A stretch of DNA of 20,056 nt from a virus, in IMG/VR virus record IMGVR_UViG_3300007072_000054, positions 1-20,056 of that record; one strand, written 5' to 3'. The notes beneath the pieces were generated by a model that saw only the letters and a program-made list of their open reading frames with translations, made no database searches and had not been told where the DNA came from. This document shows positions 604 through 15,673 of the stretch, in pieces. The position numbers and the translations under genes were made by a program. Positions within the stretch are counted from its first letter, which is position 1. Each line of letters begins with the position of its first letter.

Positions 604-3600
604 TCACTCGCCGGCATCTCCAGGAGGCGTTTCTTCCTCCCGGCCTGCCCGTGACAGTGCCCGGCCACGCCCGGCGGTTCCCGGCGCACCTGGGCGCGGA
701 AGCGGGATGCTCTTGACGCCGCTCAAGACTTTGCCTGGGGTGGTCTCCGATGGCATGAATTGTTCACCCTGTTTTCCCGACATGGCTTTCTTCGCGGAAA
801 CCGGACGGCCATTTTCCTCAAGTATCCTGATTTTATTCTCATCAAAGATGACGTAGTTGTAAGTTTTTCTTGAAATTCTCTTAAAGGTTTCAACGGCTTC
901 CGATTCATTTTCTCCCTTGTAAAAAACTTCGCCGTTCGGAATTTCTTTCACAACCCATACTTTCGAGACAGTTTCATCCGGCTTCAAAAGTTGAATATTG
1001 CGCCTGCTGAACTGGTCCAGATACCGGATGCCTTTGATGCCTTTGGAGTTCAGATATTCAGATGCCGCTTTAGGAGAGCCAAGTTGCAAAGATAATGTGC
1101 TATATAATAAATTACCAGTTGCTTCATGGGCTTTTATTCTGTCCGATCTTATTTCATTTGCTTTTTCAATAGTATGAGCGCGGCCATATTCATTAAGACC
1201 ACCAAATATTACAAAATCACGCCCGCGCTTTTCTATCTTAAAATAATTTTCAAGTTCTTGCTTATCAGCCAACCCATATTTCCTGGCAATTTCATTCAAT
1301 ATAATTTGCACTGATTTTTCTTGTTCACTTATCCGCTTATCCCAATCCAAAAATTCCTCCGGCCTAATGTCCAAGTCAACCTTGTAGATGTTTCCCTTTT
1401 GTAATGTAGTAAATTTATTTTTGTTTTCTTCTAAGAATTTAAGAATTTCTTCTGTGCGTTTTGGGTTTTTTAAAAAACCAATCGTTTTATTATTTATTTG
1501 ATATTTTAATGATTTAATTGCTTTATTTACGTCTTGAGCTGAATCAATTTCATAGGCAGCTATACGGACAATAAGCGGCATATCATCGTTTATTGGCTTA
1601 CCATCAAATTCAATTTTAATCCCTCCACCTAAATTTTTTTGATACATCTCAGCAACTAAAGGATTTTCCGAAAAATAGAGCCCGTAGCCGAACACATGCG
1701 ATCCCTCGCCTGTTCCAACCAGCTCCATCTTGAAGCCTTCTTCGATCTTGTGCGGGGTGCCGTGGTATGCTGGTAGGAAATGCTCGCCGGGCGGCGTCAA
1801 CAGTCCGCCGGTCGTTGTCTGAATGGTCGAGAGATTTTCCTTGCGGCTTTTTTCAGAAGGCATGAACATTTTTCTCCATTGTCGGGCTTCGCGGGCCACC
1901 GCCCCCCGCTCGTGCTTTTCTTTGAGAGCCTGAATGCGGTCAGATTCGTTTGCCCACGGCTTGCGATAGAGTCCATTCCTGTAAAGGTTGCGCCCCTTGA
2001 TCCGTAGTTTTTCACCGTTCGGAAGCTCCAGAGTGAATGTGTGCTGCTGTTTCTCTCGACCGTAGGAGTCCGAGATGATTTTTCCAGTCACAAGCCTAGT
2101 TCCAGCGAATTTCGGTCGGCGAAATGATCCAGTGAAGATCGCTTGCTCGAAAGCCACTTCGTCTCCCACGCAGGCGTCGCCGGTGGTGTTGATACTGTAT
2201 TCGGGTGGGATAATTGTTTTTGCCTTCTTCACCGCCTCAACCTGCTCCGGCTTCACGCGGGGCTGTTCATTTGGCCGGTTCTGTTCTGTCGCGTATGCAC
2301 TGAAACCTTCTTTGCCAAGGAAAGCATCCCCGACGCGGCGCTCTTCCGGAAGGAAAGCTGTCTTGAAGTTGTAGTAGTTGAACGGGAGTGGTTCCTCGTT
2401 CAAGAGCGCTATGGTATTCATAGCGTCGACGCGCCTGCTGGCTATCGTGCGGTCTTGATCGGCGAAAGTCGATAACGGGTCTTTCACCTTGTACTGGTTC
2501 GCTTTGTCGACGAGGTTCATGAAGTCGAAGATGCGGTTCGCTTTCTCGGGGCCTATCCCCTCGGCGGCTGGTTTGCCCTGCAAATGGTTCCGGATGACGT
2601 GCTTCATGTCTTCCCAGAACGCCTCGGTGTTTCCGCCCCAGAGGTCGAATGCCTGCGGCTTTTCCCTCTGCCAGTAATTGATCTTGTCGTAAATGCGGCT
2701 GACCGAGATACTCGTCGTGTAAAAGTGGTCATCCTTCGAGAAATGGAAACCGATCACGACCTCGTCGCGGTAGCGCGGTTTGAGGGCGCGGTAACGCTGG
2801 CGGCCCCTCCGTCCTTTGATGTTCTTGGCTTTGACGATCCCCTTTGGTTTCACCGTTTCGAGATGCGGGACGTACTCGAAGTAAAACCTCTGGCCTGGTG
2901 TCCGTTTCCAACCGTCGACGATCGTCTGGATCTTCGCCTTTTCCTGGGCCGTGAGCACGACAGGGTCAACGTTCATCAAAGCCTGCATCTGCCCCTCCGT
3001 CGGGGTGCCTGCATAATAGGTGTTGCCTTTCTCATCACGACCAATCTCTTTCATCCTCGTCGGCACGTGCTGATCGACGCTGTCGATGGCTTCCCGGATC
3101 GCAAGGCCGCGGTTCTTCGCGCGGGCCTCGTATTCCTTCTTGCTCAGGATGCGCGGACTTTTCCCGGTCGGGCTCTTCGGGTCAGGCATGTATTTGATGC
3201 CCATCTCGAAGGTTAGCGTGTTCCCGTTCGGGAGGACTTCTGGTTTGTCCATCCGATGCTTGATGGAGTCGATTCGGTTCTCCGGGACCGTCGAGCGGTT
3301 GAGGATGTTGCCCTGGGAGTCGCGGAGGACCTCCTGCACTTCCATATCGAAGATGTTCGCCCCTTTATATTGCTCGGCCAGCGCCGGGTTGCGCCGGATG
3401 TCTTCCTCGGTGATCTGAAGTCCGGACGGGTCGCGCCCGATGTAGTTGAACGGCGTGTCGAGGCGCCGGACCTCGCGGACGAAGTTCTCGGCGAGCCGGC
3501 GCGCCCTCGGGCTGAAAGACTGACGGAGGAGGCTGCTGTACCCCTCCTCCATCGTCCTCGGGTCAATCCCTGTCTCGAGCTCGAACTGCCTGGCAGCCGC

Positions 3601-6408
3601 GTCGATGTCGGCCTCGTGCCGCTTGATGGCCTCCCAGCGTTCCCGCTCCCGGCTCCCGGGGCTAGGCCATGCACTCATCGGTCCCGGCAGGTGCCGGAGG
3701 TTGGCGACGAGCTCGGCGATGTACTCGCTCTTCATGTATTCGATGCGGGCATCCTGCGGCGTGACTCCTCTGGCCGTCGCTTCGGCATCCATCCTCGCCT
3801 CCATCGCGGCGGCATCGCCAGGAGTCATCCTGGCAAGGTAAGTGTTCCATTTTTCAAGAAGAACGGAATCGGGGACTTCCCCCTTGCTCACAACGAGGTC
3901 GCTCCCGTCGGCCAATCGCACCTTGCGGTCGAACAGGAGGTCCTCCGTCTGCGCGAGGGTTTCCTGTCCCTCCTCGGTCATACGAATCTGGTGCATGAGG
4001 TCGTGCCGTATCGCCCTGACGAGGCCGCGACTTGCGATGTCCACGTTATCGTAGTTGACAACTATGGCCGGTTTGGTGATCCGGGTCTTGAAATCAGTAT
4101 ATTTCCCGGTCCATGCGGATTGACGGAGGCCGATGTAGTCGTCAGCCAGGGCAGGCTCGCTTTTGACGAGCCCGATGGCGTCGAGCTCGGAGACACCACG
4201 ATCAGCCATGACCTTTGCGATCAGTCCTGGGGCAATCTCCGGGTGCTCGCGAATCAGTGCCTTGCCGGATTTCGTGTCAACGATCCTCACGACGACGTCC
4301 GGCGTTCTGGTGATCCCGATGTCGCGTGAAGCCATGTCAAAAACGTCGGCGACATCCATCCGGGCGTGTTCTTCGACGGCCCTCCTGGCCACGGGATCCT
4401 TGCCCATCTCAAGCAGGTGCGCGTAGGACTTCTCGGCGGCGATCATCCGTCGGTCGGCCGTGATCGACTCCTCAGCGGCCACGTTCGGGTCTTCCCGCTT
4501 TGCCTTGGCTTCGGCTCTCCTTGCTTCGAGGTCTTGGCGCGTCCTTTCAACCAGATAGTCGAAGCTCGTCGCGCGGTCGATGGCGGCGGCCGTCTCCGGC
4601 GATCCCTTCCTGACTTTATCAAGGACCTCCCTCGCGTAGTTCCGGCTCGCCTCGAAATCACTCCCGAGCTTGCTCATCGGGTCCATCGCGTCCTGCATCC
4701 TGGCGAACATCCCCATGACGACTCCGGCTCCGAGAGCACGCCCGAGGTCTTCCCCGGTCTCCAGGTCTGGGAACCCGATCAGTGGGGCGATGACCATCCC
4801 GTGCGCCGCACCTTCCGCGGCTCCGCCGATTTTCCTGATGGCCGCGTCGGAAAGTTTCCCGCCGTGGCTCCTGGCGAAAGCCTGCAATGGTTTGCTCTTG
4901 GCCTCAACGTCCCTCGCCACGCGCCCCATGACTCCGACCGGCGTCGGACGTTCTGGGATGTTCCGGCCGATGTCCTTGAGGGCTTTCCCGAGGCCTTCAG
5001 CCGTTCCGAATGTGAGACTCGACAAGATTCCATGCCGCAACGGAAGCCGTCCAGCCGCGGCCTTCGCGAGCATGTCCGCTTCCTCGATCGCCGCGGCATT
5101 TCCCGTGATACTCTCGGAGAGGTTTCCGAGCCTTTCCCTGATCGCGGCTGTCATCGCCTTCCCCTTCGCGCCGAACATCTCAAGGAGCGAGCCGGTCCGC
5201 TCGAGCGTGCTTCCTGTTCCTTTGCGGAGAATCCCCCCCAAAGCCTGTTTTGCCATTCCACTTACGCCCATCTTCGCGAGCGTTTGTCCGCCAAGTCCGA
5301 GCCCGAGGACGAACGGGTTGACAGGACTCGTGATCTCGGCCGTCATTGCCACAGACGGGTTGACGGGCGGTGCCGAGGCCGTCACACTCGCCACGTAATC
5401 GTCGATCCATTTCGACGCGCCGTGTCTTTGTTCCGGCGTGATGAGCCCGGCTGCGACCATCGGAGCGTAAGACAGCTTCGCGGCTTTCCCGACTGTCGTC
5501 ATATAGTCCCCGATCAGCATCGGCTTGTTCTGCCGCAGGTCTTCCGAATACGCACTCCGGAGATGATACCGTCGCTTGAATCTGTCGAATCCTTTGTCCG
5601 TACCGGACTCGCCGAGGAGCCAGTCCGTGAACCGCGTGCCGCCCTCCAGGCTGGTCGCGACCATGCCCATGAAGTTCCGCGTTCCGCGGTAGATACCTTC
5701 TCCGAACGAGTAGATGTTTGACAGCGAACCACTGGCTTCCTCTAAAACAGCCTCTTTCAGTGGTTTCCCTTGCACGACTTTCGCGGCGACCGAGAGCGGA
5801 CTCCCGGTATGTGATATGTCCCACACGCCCTTCGCGATCTCGAATCCTGTCTCTGCGAGTCCACTCAAAAAATTGGTGAGCGTTTCTCCAGCGACCTGGG
5901 TCATTGGCTTGGAGGACTCGTCCCGGTACATGGCTTCGAGGAGGTCGTCCGGGAGCCTGTAGTCTGGGTTCTCAGCCTGGACTCTGGCCTCATACTCGCG
6001 GATCGATTCCGCATCCGGGGCGAGCGGGAGATCCAGCATGGCCCGCCGCGCATATTCCTGATTACCAGTCTCAAGATAGCGGTCTATCCAGTCCTGCCCG
6101 CGCTTCTTCGAGGCTGCAACTGAAAGAGCATTATCATCCCCAGCGAGGAACTCGTCGATGTGGTCTTTCGGGGGTTTCGCCCGGTAGTCCAGGAACATTC
6201 CGACTGGTCCGAGCCGTCCGAGCTTGAAGAAATCTTCTGCCACTTCTGCCGCGCCAAAAACCTTTTTCCTGATGCTGGGTAAAAGGCTTGCCTGTTCCGG
6301 TTCTTTTGCAGGCCCAGTCGCTACGCCTGGAAGCTCATCGACGGGCGCCTTGGCTTCGCCCAGGAGAGCTTCGTCATCGCCTTCGAGAAACTTGTCGAGC
6401 GCATCCAT
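604..6408 (-). CDS. giant multidomain protein with ART-like and metallopeptidase-like domains, candidate ejected virion protein
   Basis: This 1934-residue protein is the last gene of the minus-strand block and sits where T7 has gene 16, its ejected transglycosylase-bearing core protein. From the N-terminus I see: repeated acidic motifs (4-119); a long Gly/Ala-rich helical region with weakly hydrophobic stretches (about 364-394 and 534-571); charged helices (590-690); a metallopeptidase-like site HDLMH (802-806) with ExxxE (895-899); a conserved phage-type block ending in AFLPEE (about 1210-1356); a small beta-rich domain (1400-1485); and an ADP-ribosyltransferase-like domain (about 1546-1866). 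The C-terminal tail is rich in Pro, Gly and Arg. I find no lytic transglycosylase motif. The start ATG follows GGGGAG by four bases. Such combinations are typical of polyvalent phage proteins, which are injected to counter host defences. Injection here is inferred from gene order. Confidence 0.8.
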   Translation of the reverse strand: MDALDKFLEGDDEALLGEAKAPVDELPGVATGPAKEPEQASLLPSIRKKVFGAAEVAEDFFKLGRLGPVGMFLDYRAKPPKDHIDEFLAGDDNALSVAASKKRGQDWIDRYLETGNQEYARRAMLDLPLAPDAESIREYEARVQAENPDYRLPDDLLEAMYRDESSKPMTQVAGETLTNFLSGLAETGFEIAKGVWDISHTGSPLSVAAKVVQGKPLKEAVLEEASGSLSNIYSFGEGIYRGTRNFMGMVATSLEGGTRFTDWLLGESGTDKGFDRFKRRYHLRSAYSEDLRQNKPMLIGDYMTTVGKAAKLSYAPMVAAGLITPEQRHGASKWIDDYVASVTASAPPVNPSVAMTAEITSPVNPFVLGLGLGGQTLAKMGVSGMAKQALGGILRKGTGSTLERTGSLLEMFGAKGKAMTAAIRERLGNLSESITGNAAAIEEADMLAKAAAGRLPLRHGILSSLTFGTAEGLGKALKDIGRNIPERPTPVGVMGRVARDVEAKSKPLQAFARSHGGKLSDAAIRKIGGAAEGAAHGMVIAPLIGFPDLETGEDLGRALGAGVVMGMFARMQDAMDPMSKLGSDFEASRNYAREVLDKVRKGSPETAAAIDRATSFDYLVERTRQDLEARRAEAKAKREDPNVAAEESITADRRMIAAEKSYAHLLEMGKDPVARRAVEEHARMDVADVFDMASRDIGITRTPDVVVRIVDTKSGKALIREHPEIAPGLIAKVMADRGVSELDAIGLVKSEPALADDYIGLRQSAWTGKYTDFKTRITKPAIVVNYDNVDIASRGLVRAIRHDLMHQIRMTEEGQETLAQTEDLLFDRKVRLADGSDLVVSKGEVPDSVLLEKWNTYLARMTPGDAAAMEARMDAEATARGVTPQDARIEYMKSEYIAELVANLRHLPGPMSAWPSPGSRERERWEAIKRHEADIDAAARQFELETGIDPRTMEEGYSSLLRQSFSPRARRLAENFVREVRRLDTPFNYIGRDPSGLQITEEDIRRNPALAEQYKGANIFDMEVQEVLRDSQGNILNRSTVPENRIDSIKHRMDKPEVLPNGNTLTFEMGIKYMPDPKSPTGKSPRILSKKEYEARAKNRGLAIREAIDSVDQHVPTRMKEIGRDEKGNTYYAGTPTEGQMQALMNVDPVVLTAQEKAKIQTIVDGWKRTPGQRFYFEYVPHLETVKPKGIVKAKNIKGRRGRQRYRALKPRYRDEVVIGFHFSKDDHFYTTSISVSRIYDKINYWQREKPQAFDLWGGNTEAFWEDMKHVIRNHLQGKPAAEGIGPEKANRIFDFMNLVDKANQYKVKDPLSTFADQDRTIASRRVDAMNTIALLNEEPLPFNYYNFKTAFLPEERRVGDAFLGKEGFSAYATEQNRPNEQPRVKPEQVEAVKKAKTIIPPEYSINTTGDACVGDEVAFEQAIFTGSFRRPKFAGTRLVTGKIISDSYGREKQQHTFTLELPNGEKLRIKGRNLYRNGLYRKPWANESDRIQALKEKHERGAVAREARQWRKMFMPSEKSRKENLSTIQTTTGGLLTPPGEHFLPAYHGTPHKIEEGFKMELVGTGEGSHVFGYGLYFSENPLVAEMYQKNLGGGIKIEFDGKPINDDMPLIVRIAAYEIDSAQDVNKAIKSLKYQINNKTIGFLKNPKRTEEILKFLEENKNKFTTLQKGNIYKVDLDIRPEEFLDWDKRISEQEKSVQIILNEIARKYGLADKQELENYFKIEKRGRDFVIFGGLNEYGRAHTIEKANEIRSDRIKAHEATGNLLYSTLSLQLGSPKAASEYLNSKGIKGIRYLDQFSRRNIQLLKPDETVSKVWVVKEIPNGEVFYKGENESEAVETFKRISRKTYNYVIFDENKIRILEENGRPVSAKKAMSGKQGEQFMPSETTPGKVLSGVKSIPLPRPGAPGTAGRGRALSRAGREEETPPGDAGE
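811..1773 (-). other. ADP-ribosyltransferase-like domain (ART of the polyvalent-protein type)
   Basis: Residues 1546-1866 of the giant protein. The N-terminal part has YHGTPHK (1548-1554, His1549), then GTGEG (1565-1569) and GYGLYFS (1574-1580, Tyr1578) followed by an AxxY helix. This is the pattern of ART domains seen in polyvalent phage proteins. The C-terminal part has GIKGIRYLDQFSR (1789-1801) and NYVIFDENKIRIL (1851-1863), which resembles the final strand of PARP-like ART folds. In PARPs the Glu of the His-Tyr-Glu triad precedes the Tyr of this strand; here that position looks like Asn1851. The domain may therefore be a mono-ADP-ribosyltransferase with a variant triad, or inactive. The target is unknown. 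About 200 residues between the second and third motifs are encoded by AT-rich DNA. Confidence 0.75.
1085..1690 (-). other. AT-rich insertion within the ART-like coding region
   Basis: The coding sequence changes composition sharply here. By hand count, 1441-1500 is 25% GC and 1501-1560 is 28% GC, while 4741-4800 in the same gene is 67% GC. The tract encodes roughly residues 1573-1775, rich in Lys, Ile, Asn and Glu, and lies between the GLYFS motif and the GIKGIRYL motif. The reading frame stays open throughout. This looks like DNA that came from an AT-rich source, either as an insertion into the ART-like domain or as part of a whole acquired domain whose ends have since adapted. Confidence 0.7.
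1954..2211 (-). other. small beta-rich domain, possibly barrel-like
   Basis: Residues 1400-1485 of the giant protein alternate short predicted strands: VGDEVAFEQAIFTGSF, then TRLVTGKIISDSYG, QQHTFTLELPNG and EKLRIKGRNLYRNGL. The pattern of a Gly-Asp turn followed by strands resembles small SH3 or KOW-like barrels that bind nucleic acid or peptides. The block looks like one I associate with other large phage polyvalent proteins, but I cannot name the family. It sits between the AFLPEE and MFMPSE motifs, so it appears to be one exchangeable module. Confidence 0.35.
3694..4071 (-). other. metallopeptidase-like (zincin-like) core with HDxxH
   Basis: Residues 780-905 of the giant protein show a strand (AIVVNYDNVD, 781-790), a helix with RHDLMHQ (801-807), and a later helix with SEYIAEL (894-900). 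Zinc metallopeptidases of the gluzincin type have HExxH followed downstream by a third ligand Glu, often in an ExxxE or ExxAE helix. Here the catalytic Glu of HExxH is replaced by Asp803. The His802/His806 pair and Glu895 or Glu899 could still bind metal. Metallopeptidase domains are common in polyvalent phage proteins. Activity is uncertain because of the Asp. Confidence 0.5.
6052..6399 (-). repeat. three-copy acidic motif at the N-terminus of the giant protein
   Basis: The N-terminus repeats a short motif: LDKFLEGDDEAL (residues 4-15), IDEFLAGDDNAL (84-95) and a weaker IDRYLETGNQEY (108-119). The consensus is a hydrophobic residue, Asp, any residue, Phe or Tyr, Leu, then an acidic turn. The spacing between copies is not constant. 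Repeated short motifs at the end of an ejected protein could bind a partner in the virion core, but this is only inference. Confidence 0.55.
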
Positions 6409-9999: not shown

Positions 10000-10419
10000 T
10001 TAGTCGTCTCCCTTCACACGATATATTTCTGCATTTTGCCTGTCAAACCCGAGCTTCGCCATAACCTCCGGCGTAAACTTGTTATTTGGTTTGTTCGTCG
10101 GGACAGCGACGAACCCTTCTCCATGCTGGACCTTGGCCCAGCCGACGAAGTGTTGCATGATCTCAGCGGTCTGCCTGGGCGTCACGGCGTCCGGGTTCAA
10201 GGCCGGGAAAACGATCGGCGTCGAGACGATCTGAAAATATCCGAGGATGCGCTCGGTCTCCCGCTCGCTCACGACCATGATCGGGTGCCGGAGCGTCGTG
10301 ATCCTATGGCCGAACGTCGCTGCATACTGGTCGAGGGCCTCGATCTCCTTCAGGTTCGACCTGTCTAGAAGCCTAAACCGGAGGCTCTTGTGGGCCGCTA
10401 TGGAGAGTTCTTTGCTCAT
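10000..10419 (-). CDS. GNAT-like small protein (T7 gp13 position)
   Basis: This 139-residue protein has the layout of a GNAT acyltransferase fold: an N-terminal strand and helix (RFRLLDRSNLKEIEALDQY, 13-31), a strand (ILGYFQIVSTP, 58-68), a helix (TPRQTAEIMQHFVGWAK, about 79-95), a strand (GFVAVPTN) and the typical last unit FTPEVMAKLGF followed by a strand. The usual acetyl-CoA loop (Q/RxxGxG/A) is not evident, so it may not be an active enzyme. T7 gp13 has nearly the same length and a similar fold pattern, and it also sits between the nozzle and gp14 genes, where it acts in particle morphogenesis. The ATG overlaps the nozzle stop codon (ATGA), and AAGGAGG is four bases upstream. Confidence 0.55.
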   Translation of the reverse strand: MSKELSIAAHKSLRFRLLDRSNLKEIEALDQYAATFGHRITTLRHPIMVVSERETERILGYFQIVSTPIVFPALNPDAVTPRQTAEIMQHFVGWAKVQHGEGFVAVPTNKPNNKFTPEVMAKLGFDRQNAEIYRVKGDD

Positions 10420-12476
10420 GCGTCCTCCTTGACTGGCGGTTCAAAAGTATCACGGGCGCACGGCAGACACGCCACGCAATCAGTTTCAAGGTCTTCCCAT
10501 GAAACCGGGATCGAGCTGTAGAAAACCTCGTTGACCCTCGGGCTGATCGGGCTGACGAACGCTGTGCGGTCCGAAGTCGGTGAGCCGTAGGTTTCGGCCC
10601 GTTCGCCGATTGCTTCAAGTTCACCGGGTTCCGAGTTGAAGTGCCTGCTTTCTCCGCGATAGCTCAAAGCCCCTGATCCCTCCTCGTCCTCGGTGCAGTC
10701 GCCGCTCGACGGCTCGCTGAACATGGGTTCAAGATAAATGCGGAACGAATCTATTCCGGCCCGGCCGCACCACTGAAAATACATGGCAAACCGGCTATCA
10801 ACGTCCGGGCTGTTCTGGCTCTCGACGGAAAAGCAGTTGGAGGTGAAACTTTTCCTGGCCTCCTGCGTCCGCAGATATCGGGTCTGGACCCGGAACGGGC
10901 CGTCTGAATCGTAGTAATTTTGGAGTTCCGAGTCGCTCGTCAAACCGGGTTCAGTGAGGCTGTTTAGCCTAACGCGGAGGACCTCGTCGAGGATTCCACG
11001 CATCCCGCAGTATGAAGCTTTAAAAGTGACCTTGTCTCCGATCTCGACGACATATACTTCGGCGAAGCAAAACCGTTTCAGGTCGAGCCCGTCCCCGAGA
11101 TACTTTGAGAGCATGGAACAGTAGATCGGGTTTTTCTTGACGTGGCGCGTGTTCTGGCTGTCGCGGTAATCTATCGTATCCATCCTGTCACTCTGGAAAG
11201 CCTGCCAGACGTGGTTGAAGCTCGTCCCGTTCGGGAGGGCCTGGTAATCGGTCGAGAAAGCCCAGATGCGCTCCTCCTCTTCAACGTATCCCTTCGTCCA
11301 CTCGACCGGCCGGATGCCAGTCCAGATGCCATTCCAGGCTGCCGGAGAATCCTGGCTGAGTTCGTCCGCGACGGCATAGTCCAAAACCTGCGTGTGCGCG
11401 TTGAGTGTGTCTCCGCTCGGGACGCTGACGAGGAGATAGCTCTCGAAGGCCCCGGCGCAAATCCCGGTCAGGTCCGGCGCGAGGTTCCGCTTGGAGACAG
11501 CCATCTCCATGTCTTTGAACTTGATCTGGGACGTGATAAAAAGCGATTCCGCCGAGTCGTTCGCCACGAGTCCCTTCGGCGAGTACCACCAGAGGAGCCC
11601 GGCATGGTTCACGACGCTTTTGCCGGCGATGCACCCGAGGTCGCTGTAGATGACAAACTGGAAGTTTGGAGTATCGGCCCACGTTGAGCGGTCGATGATG
11701 GATGAGAGAAAACCGGTCGTCTGGTTTCGCGTGAAAACAAGAAGGTTCGTCTGTCGGTTGTCGCCATAGGAGAGGCCCATCCCCGTGATGTCCCCCGGGA
11801 GCGTGTAGTCTCCGCGACCCTCACCCTCGAGCCTCTCCTTGAATGAAAGCGGGTCGAGCAGGTCGCTCGCGAGCAGCGTGTTTCCGCGGGCCACCCAGAG
11901 ACGCCCACCAGAATACTCCATCCATGTTCCGCGCGGCGTCTGGAAAAACGGCGCGTTCTCGTTGAGGTGCCCATCGAGGCTGCCGTCCCAGTATCCGCAG
12001 GCGTTCACGCCGTCCTGAATCAGGAGGACACTGTATGTTGGGACGATCTTGATTGTCTCCTGGTTGGCCTCGACGCTCTTCTCGGCGATGGCCCAGTGGA
12101 TCTGCTTGGCGAGCGGGCTGAAGGAGAGGCCCCGGAGCCTGTAAGACTCCCAGTTGTCAGGCTGGATCGGCTGTCCGTTCTCGAACGGGCAGTAGTACAC
12201 CTTGCCGTCAACGGCGAAAACGAGGTACGGGCCGCTCGTGCTGGCATCCTTGTTCGCTTGGAAAAACTTTCCTCCTTGAAGGTTGCCGGGCGGAAGCTCA
12301 AGACGGAGCCTGTATCCCGGTCGCGTCTGGACAACTCCGCCTCGGCAGACGACGTTAACACCCCACTGGTACTGCGTGTCCGGGAGGAGCCAAGGGTTGC
12401 GGACCGAGTTGCATCCGTTGAACCACCCGGCGGCGACTTTTTCCCAGCGCTGCTGTGATAGCTCAGCGTTTTTCAT
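10416..12476 (-). CDS. tail nozzle / tail tubular protein B-like protein
   Basis: This 686-residue protein is beta-rich throughout. Near the N-terminus it has the run CNSVRNPWLL, then GGVVQTRPGYR (46-56), a signature of podovirus nozzle proteins (T7 gp12 or P22 gp10 type), in which the Arg-Pro-Gly follows the first strands of a propeller-like core. Repeated patterns such as SGGRLWVARGNTLLAS and HAGLLWWYSPKGLV look like propeller blades. The protein would form the distal tube of a short tail, below the adaptor. The C-terminus contains a Cys cluster (DCVACLPC), which is unusual for this family as I know it. The start overlaps the stop of the neck-like gene (ATGA), which supports coupled translation of adaptor and nozzle. 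Confidence 0.75.
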   Translation of the reverse strand: MKNAELSQQRWEKVAAGWFNGCNSVRNPWLLPDTQYQWGVNVVCRGGVVQTRPGYRLRLELPPGNLQGGKFFQANKDASTSGPYLVFAVDGKVYYCPFENGQPIQPDNWESYRLRGLSFSPLAKQIHWAIAEKSVEANQETIKIVPTYSVLLIQDGVNACGYWDGSLDGHLNENAPFFQTPRGTWMEYSGGRLWVARGNTLLASDLLDPLSFKERLEGEGRGDYTLPGDITGMGLSYGDNRQTNLLVFTRNQTTGFLSSIIDRSTWADTPNFQFVIYSDLGCIAGKSVVNHAGLLWWYSPKGLVANDSAESLFITSQIKFKDMEMAVSKRNLAPDLTGICAGAFESYLLVSVPSGDTLNAHTQVLDYAVADELSQDSPAAWNGIWTGIRPVEWTKGYVEEEERIWAFSTDYQALPNGTSFNHVWQAFQSDRMDTIDYRDSQNTRHVKKNPIYCSMLSKYLGDGLDLKRFCFAEVYVVEIGDKVTFKASYCGMRGILDEVLRVRLNSLTEPGLTSDSELQNYYDSDGPFRVQTRYLRTQEARKSFTSNCFSVESQNSPDVDSRFAMYFQWCGRAGIDSFRIYLEPMFSEPSSGDCTEDEEGSGALSYRGESRHFNSEPGELEAIGERAETYGSPTSDRTAFVSPISPRVNEVFYSSIPVSWEDLETDCVACLPCARDTFEPPVKEDA

Positions 12477-15400
12477 GTGATATATTGCCTCGTCGTGTTC
12501 ATGTAAATATCATTATTAACCTGAATCCCGCGGCTCTCCGGCCCCGTTCGGGCGAGTTGCTCCTCGAGGAGCCACTGTACCGCTTTCTCTTCGCAGGCCG
12601 TTCCCTGATCTTTGTGGTCCGCCCTGAAGTGCTCGAGGGCCTTGAGCATCATGATGATCGCCATCTTGTTCGAGATTGGGATGAAGTCATTCTCGGAGAG
12701 GAACTTGAACGTCCTCTTACGGTAACGCACGCGCACCCACGCGCACGGTTTTCCGACCTTGATCCGGCGATAGCTTGGTGCTGTCTCGTCGAAGTAGTAG
12801 TGGCCGATCAGAGTGAGGGCAGTCGTCCTGCCGGTGTCCCAAGCGTAGAGGTCGATGAAGCTGTCGCTTAGTTCCTTCTCCACCCTCTCGATCTTTTTGA
12901 CGAGGAACGGGTCGAGGAGTTGCCGGAAGTAGTGCGTTCCATCACCAGATGTCGTGAGGATGATCCGCCCGGCAACGTTCGGGGCTGCGAGGGCTTGGGC
13001 AGCCGTCGCGTAGAGCTCGACCTCATCGTTTCCGATCCGGCGGATGTAGTACGTCGTGCCAGCAACAAGCGGCGTCGGCGGCGTTCCATCAGACAGCACT
13101 TCCACACCGTCACCGGTCTGGTAGTTGTTTGAGACGACCTCGACGCTCGTGTTCAAGACGGCCGTAAAGTCCGACTGGATGATCATGCTGTGCGTCCCGG
13201 CACCTATGTTCGCAAGCACGACCTGCGTGCCAGCCAGCGTATAGACGACGAGTCTCCCGGACTGGACATCGATCTTGTAGTCGGTCGCCAGTGCCAGCGG
13301 GGACGGAAGAGTCCCGGTCGTCGTGAACTGCACGACAGCGTTTTCGAGGAGGTAGCTGGCCGACTCGGGGATGAGGAGGCTGCTCCGTGGCACGACCGTC
13401 GCCGACCGCGAGAACGCCAGGTAAAGTTGACCGGCTCCCAGGGCCAGAAACTTGATGTTGCTCCGTCGAACCTGCCCGTTCGCATCCGCCGTCACTCCTA
13501 CAACCGCGCCGGGGTTTGAATAGGTGAACGTTGTCGGGCCCGTAACAGTGATCTGGACGCGCTCGGTATTGAAGGTCGAGTCCGTCATGTTCCGCACGTC
13601 GACGTAGTCGCCTGTTAGGAGGCCGTGCGCAGCCGTCGTCGTGATGGTTGCTATCCCCGCAGCCCGACTCCTGTTGAGCGTCTGCCGGACGGCCGCATCG
13701 AGGGCGTTCGCGGGCGTATCGAAAACTTCGATGGTGCTACCGTCTATGACGCGGAGGTAATAGGTCGTCGCAGTGTTGATGGTCGGGTCGCAGCTCGGGA
13801 GCGTCCCGTCCGTGTCGAAAGTGAACGGGTCGGCCGTCGCCAGCGCAGATGCGTCCGCCGAGACTTGGCTCGTGAAGCCTATCGTAAACGACCGGCTGAT
13901 GACCAGGTAGAGCTGCCCCGTCCCGGCCGTCGTGATGTTGACGCGCCCACGCGTGATTGTCCCGCCCGCATCGACGAACGGCCCAGCGTTCGGCAGCGCC
14001 TGCGGATACGTGAAAGTGTTGGGTCCAGTCACGGTGATTGTGACCTGGCTCGCGTTGAAGCTCGCGTCGGCTGTGCATCCCTCGATGTCAACAACGTCTC
14101 CCGTCGTGTATCCGTGCGCTGTCGTCGTGGTCATCGTTACGACGGACGCCGCCCGTTGGTATTGGCTCGTTCCAGCGACGAGATAGCTGAGGTAACAGAG
14201 CGTGAACGTCGAGAGGCTGGACGGTGCCTGGGCTTGGTAGATCGTTCCATCCGTGAGCGGATCTGGGAGAATCCCTGTCGTCTCGAAAAGGACGTAATCG
14301 CCTGCCGAGAGATTGTGGCCGGCCGCTGCCACGTTATTCTTCGTTCCAAGGACGACAGAGGCAGCGATCCGCTTGACGATGAGATTCGTCCCGCTCCCGG
14401 CTGTCGTGAGGACGATAGGGTCGGTACCAGCAGATGCCGCTGAGTACGTCAGGTGAAGCGTGATCGTGTTCGAGTTGATGACGTGCGCGTAGTACGTTAC
14501 GCCTGATTGGAGCGGGGCTGGAAGCTCGCCTCCGTTGTTCTGGACCGTCACGGCGTCACCATTAATGAGGTTGTGGTTCGTCGCGGTGACCTCGGTTGTG
14601 ATCGGATAGCATGGGAGCGTCGTGTGCGCCACGACTGCGGCTCCGGCATCCGTGCAGTTGATCGCGTTCACGTCGGCGAGGGCTTCATCCTGCGTCCTGT
14701 AGACGCGGAAGTGTGTCGCGTCTTGGTCCCCGTTCGCGTCCAGGGTGTTCACATAGTAGGTCGTCCCGGAGACGAGAGGTGCAGGCATCGTGCCGGCTGT
14801 GAACCGCACGAGCGAGCCGTTGATCATGTGGTGCGGCGTCGCCGTCTGGATTTGAGTCTCTACGGCCACGTCGCGTGAGTCATTGATGTTGATCGTGCAT
14901 CCTGTCGGGTTCGACGCGATGATGATGGCATTGCGGTCTGCCAGGGCATCCTCCCTGGTCAGGTAGAGGTTGACCGATCGGGCGCTGGTCCGCCGGATGT
15001 AGTAGGTGATCTGCTGGAACGGCTCCGGCAATGTCCCGGCAACCAGAGTCAAGTCGGCGGCCTGCCCGGTTGCGAAACTGTGGTCGGCTGGGCTGTCCCA
15101 TTCCGTCGAAGGAATCTGCGAGAAGATCCGGCGGAACTCGCGGACTCCGGCCGGGGCGATGATTCCGCCAGGGAAATCGCCGACCACATTGACCGGCACG
15201 ATGAACCCATCCCTCCATGTCCCGTCTGGCTCTTGCGTCCTGATCCACTGGTTTGCATCATCCCATCCAAACACGCGGAGGATGCGCCCGAGGTCGGTCT
15301 GGCTCGCAGCCACGGCGATGAGTTCCGCCGGATTGATGATGTCCATGAAGACCGGCCACCAGCCGGTATCGTCCCAAGCCCACGGGACCATGCTGCCTGT

Positions 15401-15673
15401 CCCTAGACCGTTCAGGTGAAACTCATACCACTTGTTCCGAAAGACGGCCGGACGACCGCAGACGTTCACGGCGAGCGGCGTGTCGATCTCCCTCGGAAGG
15501 GTGAGGAAGCACCCGTCGCTCGTCGTGCAGATGTCCGCATAACCGAGGATGCCATCGACCTCGGCCTTGTTGGCAAGGACGGTGACGGCGTCCGAGAGAC
15601 GCTCGAGGACTGTTTCCTCATCACACCTCCCGAGTACCTTCCGGGCTTCCGGCATGATCTCGCTTACAAGCAT
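12473..15673 (-). CDS. neck/adaptor-like structural protein with a seven-unit repeat array
   Basis: This 1066-residue protein has an N-terminal part (1-192, including a helical start MLVSEIMPEARKVL and the block PLAVNVCGRPAVFRNKWYEF), a central repeat array (193-918) and a C-terminal part (919-1066) with NDFIPISNKMAIIMMLKALEHF (995-1016), reminiscent of phage adaptor proteins where long helices contact the portal. It sits directly before the nozzle gene, as T7 gene 11 does. The repeats resemble those annotated in phages as FCCH domains, with the pattern GD, G(T/E)LPxPL, GTxYY. They appear to split an adaptor fold and would decorate the neck or bind host glycans. I chose the ATG at 15673 because the longer frame to 15853 overlaps the upstream gene. 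Confidence 0.7.
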   Translation of the reverse strand: MLVSEIMPEARKVLGRCDEETVLERLSDAVTVLANKAEVDGILGYADICTTSDGCFLTLPREIDTPLAVNVCGRPAVFRNKWYEFHLNGLGTGSMVPWAWDDTGWWPVFMDIINPAELIAVAASQTDLGRILRVFGWDDANQWIRTQEPDGTWRDGFIVPVNVVGDFPGGIIAPAGVREFRRIFSQIPSTEWDSPADHSFATGQAADLTLVAGTLPEPFQQITYYIRRTSARSVNLYLTREDALADRNAIIIASNPTGCTININDSRDVAVETQIQTATPHHMINGSLVRFTAGTMPAPLVSGTTYYVNTLDANGDQDATHFRVYRTQDEALADVNAINCTDAGAAVVAHTTLPCYPITTEVTATNHNLINGDAVTVQNNGGELPAPLQSGVTYYAHVINSNTITLHLTYSAASAGTDPIVLTTAGSGTNLIVKRIAASVVLGTKNNVAAAGHNLSAGDYVLFETTGILPDPLTDGTIYQAQAPSSLSTFTLCYLSYLVAGTSQYQRAASVVTMTTTTAHGYTTGDVVDIEGCTADASFNASQVTITVTGPNTFTYPQALPNAGPFVDAGGTITRGRVNITTAGTGQLYLVISRSFTIGFTSQVSADASALATADPFTFDTDGTLPSCDPTINTATTYYLRVIDGSTIEVFDTPANALDAAVRQTLNRSRAAGIATITTTAAHGLLTGDYVDVRNMTDSTFNTERVQITVTGPTTFTYSNPGAVVGVTADANGQVRRSNIKFLALGAGQLYLAFSRSATVVPRSSLLIPESASYLLENAVVQFTTTGTLPSPLALATDYKIDVQSGRLVVYTLAGTQVVLANIGAGTHSMIIQSDFTAVLNTSVEVVSNNYQTGDGVEVLSDGTPPTPLVAGTTYYIRRIGNDEVELYATAAQALAAPNVAGRIILTTSGDGTHYFRQLLDPFLVKKIERVEKELSDSFIDLYAWDTGRTTALTLIGHYYFDETAPSYRRIKVGKPCAWVRVRYRKRTFKFLSENDFIPISNKMAIIMMLKALEHFRADHKDQGTACEEKAVQWLLEEQLARTGPESRGIQVNNDIYMNTTRQYIT
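13466..13666 (-). repeat. nested module, copy 2, inside the fifth repeat
   Basis: Protein residues 670-736 contain TTTAAHGLLTGDYVDVRN, then FN and VQITVTGPTTFTY. It matches copy 1 in order and length and is followed by the same kind of closing strand (FLALGAGQLYLAFS). The shared architecture points to duplication of a whole compound unit. Confidence 0.65.
13946..14152 (-). repeat. nested module, copy 1, inside the fourth repeat
   Basis: Protein residues 508-576 contain the pattern TTTAHGYTTGDVVDIEG, then FN and VTITVTGPNTFTY. It interrupts the fourth FCCH-like unit before its closing strands (GRVNITTAGTGQLYLVIS). The same module, at the same place, is found in the fifth unit. Confidence 0.65.

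Follow-up and report, generated by a model that had tools for sequence, protein, structure and literature searches.

A podophage head-tail adaptor with an FCCH-like domain array in its fibre-dock domain, a putative source of adsorption side arms in a clade of uncultured phages

The window analysed here, a virus record of 20,056 bases, encodes a 1066-aa protein (P0001) whose identification as a podophage head-tail adaptor is well supported: as judged from structure models, its two terminal pieces together make one adaptor, and a 724-residue FCCH-like array is inserted within the beta domain predicted to be the fibre dock. The array is a conserved trait of a large clade of uncultured short-tailed phages, not a one-off. 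It probably forms covalent side arms outside the neck that would aid adsorption.

Gene, locus and genome context

The 1066-aa protein is encoded by one unbroken ORF of 1066 codons (Table 1). Its ATG lies just 3′ of the stop codon of the upstream gene, is preceded by the sequence GGGAGG and lines up in alignment with the starts of its relatives; its stop codon overlaps the start of the downstream 686-aa gene as ATGA. A near-identical copy in IMGVR_UViG_3300022554_000020 (35,953 bases) adds upstream head genes. In transcript order there are a portal-sized gene, a scaffold-like gene, glycan-related genes, a capsid gene, small genes, an endolysin gene, a fibre-like gene, more small genes, the 1066-aa gene, the nozzle-like gene and candidates for large internal proteins. 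The labels portal, scaffold, capsid and nozzle are derived from position, size and sequence character; family searches gave no informative match for the head genes. The order portal, scaffold, capsid, adaptor, nozzle is present in L014 (same phage) and the window, and relatives have capsid and nozzle homologues in matching order, with the capsid gene upstream and a nozzle-like gene adjoining the adaptor gene. A 705-aa protein of the same genome has tail-fibre-like matches and is a possible fibre or spike.

Table 1. Features of the adaptor locus, with residues of the 1066-aa protein and coordinates in the window
Feature	Residues	Coordinates	Strand	Basis
Nozzle-like protein, 686 aa, ATG overlaps adaptor stop		10416..12476	minus	Homologue directly after the adaptor gene in near relatives and in the array clade; PHROG 511
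Adaptor gene with inserted array, P0001, 1066 aa		12473..15673	minus	Single ORF; own AlphaFold2 model matches adaptors over residues 1-1055
Adaptor N-terminal piece: two helices and first part of the fibre-dock beta domain (predicted)	1-170	15164..15673	minus	Nearly fully covered by all 37 array-less relatives; pLDDT
Insertion: linker and FCCH-like array	171-921	12911..15163	minus	Not covered by array-less relatives (about 172-920)
A1	195-268	14870..15091	minus	Self-alignment and repeat HMM; ordered domain in relatives
A2	269-356	14606..14869	minus	Self-alignment and repeat HMM; ordered in relatives
A3	357-437	14363..14605	minus	Best match is A3 of relatives (39% versus 20-30%)
A4 with nested second-type domain	438-594	13892..14362	minus	Self-alignment and repeat HMM; order in relatives
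B1, second type	508-577	13943..14152	minus	Pfam E1_FCCH PF16190, best stretch 510-573
A5 with nested second-type domain	595-757	13403..13891	minus	Self-alignment and repeat HMM; order in relatives
B2, second type	668-738	13460..13672	minus	PHROG 9998, best stretch 669-725
A6	758-837	13163..13402	minus	Self-alignment and repeat HMM; order in relatives
A7	838-918	12920..13162	minus	Self-alignment and repeat HMM; order in relatives
Adaptor C-terminal piece: end of beta domain, two helices, stop	922-1066	12473..12910	minus	Alignment; pLDDT

Upstream of the window, between the scaffold-like and capsid genes (L014:8928-12748), lies a sugar-related set that encodes a glycosyltransferase 25, a GH130-type protein, an Anp1-like protein and a methyltransferase; these might act on glycans of the virion or of the host. 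After the capsid gene (L014:5931-7375), two adjoining proteins of 357 and 118 aa, which by eye appear to have a C-terminal domain in common, are a possible capsid decoration pair. The last gene of the window (604-6408, minus strand) encodes a 1934-aa protein with a match to DUF7699 (E 1.7e-17) and a sub-threshold match to ART-PolyVal, and its product is probably an ejected multi-domain protein.

One adaptor in two pieces

The initial annotation proposed that an array of beta domains splits a neck adaptor just before the nozzle gene, and this is borne out by an alignment with 37 relatives, by the protein's own structure model and by the adjoining nozzle-like gene. In the 38-row alignment, the 37 array-less relatives (328-350 aa) align to residues 1-170 and approximately 922-1060 apart from small loops, and none of the 37 covers residues 172-920 or thereabouts; because the array-less rows stop at both ends of this stretch, the insertion is clean. 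It amounts to about 750 aa (a 24-residue linker followed by the array) and is located between two strands of the adaptor beta domain. The annotated array length of about 725 residues was accurate, but the boundary placed near residue 190 was slightly off, as the insert starts near residue 171. The closest single-module relative, L044, has 38% identity over the aligned ends. Array-bearing relatives are 993-1554 aa long with a variable array, so that the search recommended at the outset, for relatives that lack or vary the array, yielded both. Fusion of a separate array gene through a sequencing error was considered and dropped, since the single frame recurs in dozens of independent contigs.

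An AlphaFold2 model of L044, built from a 47-row alignment (pLDDT 82.6), has its best structural matches among the tails of SU10, KHP30, Pa223, GP4, Shigella phage B2, VP1 and Carin 1 and the connector of P1 (best Z 10.6 by VIA-align; top Foldseek match SU10, E 7.3e-3). The AlphaFold2 model of the full 1066-aa protein has confident ends (pLDDT mostly 85-97 up to residue 160 and 85-98 for about residues 921-1040, with low confidence after about residue 1047, where a C-terminal helix or loop embracing the portal would be sought) and an unconfident array (mostly under 50), the latter because relatives of the array came to light only after modelling. When this model was compared with solved structures by VIA-align, the first 25 matches were all adaptors or connectors of phages or GTAs, nearly all spanning both ends (cyanophage A4, Z 10.8; SU10, 10.6; GP4, 10.4; Pa223, 10.2; KHP30, 10.0; N4, 8.7; T7, 5.7), and the next row was an unrelated protein with Z 4.2. 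Both the array-less model and the protein's own model thus agree with the prediction that the termini would adopt an adaptor fold.

At the sequence level, the Pfam family SU10_adaptor is matched by the modules of three of 47 relatives (best E 1.3e-5), the 1066-aa protein itself has no Pfam adaptor match, and hhalign comparisons of the adaptor and nozzle alignments with single SU10 or T7 proteins were not significant. A separate adaptor gene elsewhere in the genome would have spoken against the assignment, and no second adaptor gene was found in the 36-kb record of this phage or among 11 related records (48-94 kb). Each of these 12 records, which may be incomplete, contains exactly one split pair in a single frame.

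The assigned adaptor resembles gp11 of SU10 and gp11 of T7 in having a helix bundle and a beta domain, and those proteins likewise are encoded after the capsid gene and act between portal and nozzle (PMC9509320, PMC6702177). The beta domain is the fibre dock in T7 and SU10 and is absent from P22 and Sf6 (PMC6702177, PMC9509320); because the interrupted domain belongs to the same fold, the array is placed inside the fibre dock. The SU10 and T7 adaptors differ in being only about 200-250 aa long, in having no array, and in that separate trimeric fibres dock on their beta domain.

The array and its conservation across a clade

The array consists of seven domains of one type (A1-A7), in agreement with the seven beta domains of the initial annotation, and of two domains of a second type, 70 aa each, which lie within the tails of A4 and A5. 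Only the second type passes the cut-off of Pfam E1_FCCH (49.5 bits versus 29.5, in two stretches); the type-A domains fall below the models and are related in pattern. A role related to ubiquitin was dismissed, because the family name implies no ubiquitin function here. No solved structure in the PDB matches the type-A domain by sequence. A model built from the seven A domains matched the same domains in dozens of independent contigs, so the array is not due to chance. At the DNA level the array contains only short two-copy matches; its repeats exist at the protein level only, and the array is therefore old. Recent repeat expansion was dropped as an explanation on account of the lack of DNA repeats and the position-specific character of the domains. 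Several type-A domains are also found in a 1736-aa podovirus virion structural protein with no adaptor match (L005:11493-16703; ctQRb9, MW202722).

Direct searches did not reveal the family, since nothing named is close to this phage. With tblastn, queries with both ends of the protein, with the nozzle and portal proteins and with the nearest relative gave nothing useful in 50,697 phage records, among which no member of the array group was found; in IMG/VR, the unaligned protein, its N-terminus, the nozzle and the portal found only the same phage and two weak matches to the array; and sequence searches of the PDB were empty or returned matches at chance level. The family was opened by scanning the degenerate pattern W[YF]EFHxNG through IMG/VR. 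Genomes of bacteria and archaea, scanned twice, yielded no relative, and hence no host is named.

A scan with the nozzle-like protein identified 379 relatives, and the analysis continued with the best 80. An adaptor piece is upstream of the nozzle gene in 78 of these best 80, and in those 78 loci it is split by this array wherever the contig reaches far enough. In a tree of the nozzle-like proteins the array carriers form one group (SH-aLRT 100), the single exception inside it being a fragment at a contig edge; the tree was built quickly and has long branches outside the array group, where the mutual relations of the array-less lineages are unsure.

The 33 nonredundant full-length proteins of the array group have seven domains in a fixed order, three before a centre and four after it. 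Domains in the same position of different proteins are 40-56% identical and domains in different positions 16-28%; this identity test is the evidence for a fixed order, rather than the count of seven matches, which were chosen partly by position. When the 1066-aa protein is compared with the domains of its relatives, domains 3, 4, 6 and 7 match clearly and domains 1, 2 and 5 weakly.

Variation in length is mainly in the centre, between domains 3 and 4, which ranges from 16 to 567 aa in what look by eye like steps of about 80 aa. The centres are composed of GSGYT-type repeats and FCCH domains, types that other phages also have in proteins of the baseplate, tail fibre and neck. Cyanomyoviruses similarly have GSGYT-type repeats inserted in virion structural proteins of the baseplate and neck (Hc2; PHROGs 460, 701, 2885), but they are contractile-tailed, and here the GSGYT-type repeats are confined to the centres of relatives and do not occur in the 1066-aa protein. 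In pairs of proteins selected for adaptor ends with an average identity of 80-100%, identity is 93-94% in the ends, 74-87% in the array domains and 62% in the centre, whose length often differs within a pair; for example, L150 and L152 have adaptor ends that are 99-100% identical and centres of 265 and 422 aa. The present phage has a centre of only 18 aa and extra domains at two other joints.

Such gain and loss of large segments in the centres, together with the occurrence of similar domains in many unrelated structural proteins of phages, is what would be expected if the array were a mobile and mostly neutral decoration, as has been proposed for promiscuous Ig-like domains of phages. Neutral decoration does not predict a seven-domain order in 33 of 33 nonredundant proteins throughout one clade, and is considered very improbable.

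Possible roles of the array

If the protein assembles as solved adaptors do, twelve copies would probably form a ring between portal and nozzle. The chain exits and returns at a single dock loop, so that a covalent side arm is to be expected on every subunit. Three domains would lead out and four would lead back, and the far end would be the middle of the arm, the stretch between domains 3 and 4 in which extra, fast-changing domains are found in most relatives. The arm is most likely outside the neck, helping the virion to adsorb to the host surface. The initial annotation proposed that the array might adhere to host glycans or mucus. The combination of a conserved base and an exchangeable middle resembles that of receptor-binding proteins, and the rapid evolution of the middle, as judged from sequence, indirectly favours a role in adsorption. 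The near absence of this most variable part from the present phage counts against the interpretation of the array as an arm. The arms need not replace fibres, given the tail-fibre-like matches of the 705-aa protein.

Precedents exist for added beta domains in neck and tail proteins. The tail-tube protein of phi29-related phages such as Phanie has inserted Ig-like beta domains, predicted to lie beside the tube like non-trimeric short fibres (PMC11476376), although that protein is the tail knob p9 and its domains are different. Tail tubular protein A of KP32 is an adaptor of the T7 gp11 type with a beta region reported to be lectin-like and active on exopolysaccharide (PMC5440376), but it has a small extra beta sheet and no array. 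In the adaptor of roseophage R4C, a beta domain is added at the edge of the ring (PMC10276861); R4C differs in being a siphophage with one N-terminal Ig-like domain that contacts the capsid, and it has no seven-domain insertion in a dock. No report of a multi-domain array inside the fibre dock of an adaptor was found in the literature searched, from which most subscription papers were missing.

The R4C domain was judged likelier to stabilise than to adsorb (PMC10276861), and by extension the array could be structural, a brace of the neck against the capsid vertex or a collar, with no role in host binding; a fixed order of seven domains would suit defined contacts. A single bracing domain is far smaller than the approximately 725 to over 1100 residues per subunit found here, and faster divergence and length change of the centre beside a near-constant adaptor would be unusual for a packing element, so that a purely structural function seems unlikely. 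Still less probable is an enlarged dock holding a separate tail fibre that binds the host. The location of the array inside the dock domain (PMC9509320) and the possible fibre or spike encoded in the genome are compatible with such a dock, but T7 and SU10 dock their trimeric fibres with one small beta domain, and the repeat types of the centre are found in fibres and baseplates of phages, which points to the array itself as the contacting part.

Adsorption arms therefore remain the preferred interpretation. A more specific version, in which the adsorption organs of the clade are twelve single-chain hairpin arms of the adaptor ring, each with a fixed seven-domain frame and an exchangeable tip, is put forward tentatively and may well be wrong.

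Other adaptors of the wider family are elaborated in different ways. Tandem double adaptors range from about 610 to 990 aa in the family; those of L016, L018, L019, L020, L028, L034, L038, L042, L063, L064 and L106 (about 610-870 aa) have two full modules in one protein and adjoin the same nozzle-like gene. They could form either two stacked rings or a single ring of fused pairs. In L050 (5080-8037) and also in L031, a calcineurin-like phosphoesterase domain (Pfam Metallophos, E 2.4e-9 in L031) breaks up the second adaptor module. The loop after the next dock strand, neighbouring the loop of the array, contains CHB_HEX_C_1-type repeats in L028 (9068-11674) and an insert of no identified family in L038 (1348-3654). 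Both loops look like insertion hot spots. In a distant subgroup (L074, L083, L103, L109, L111, L118 and similar loci), the nozzle-like gene is located about 1-2 kb before the adaptor gene instead of after it, and adaptors of the L109 type have a small insert at the array's own loop.

Adaptor rings are usually treated as plain connectors. In a clade with at least 78 detected contigs, the fibre-dock domain has become the support of a large array whose middle can change, while in cousins a neighbouring loop contains a phosphoesterase or a chitobiase-type domain. Hairpin arms, if real, would add a second way of building side fibres to the usual one, in which the fibres are separate trimers. Should the arms bind hosts, part of the host range of this clade would be encoded in a neck protein, where host-prediction tools would overlook it.
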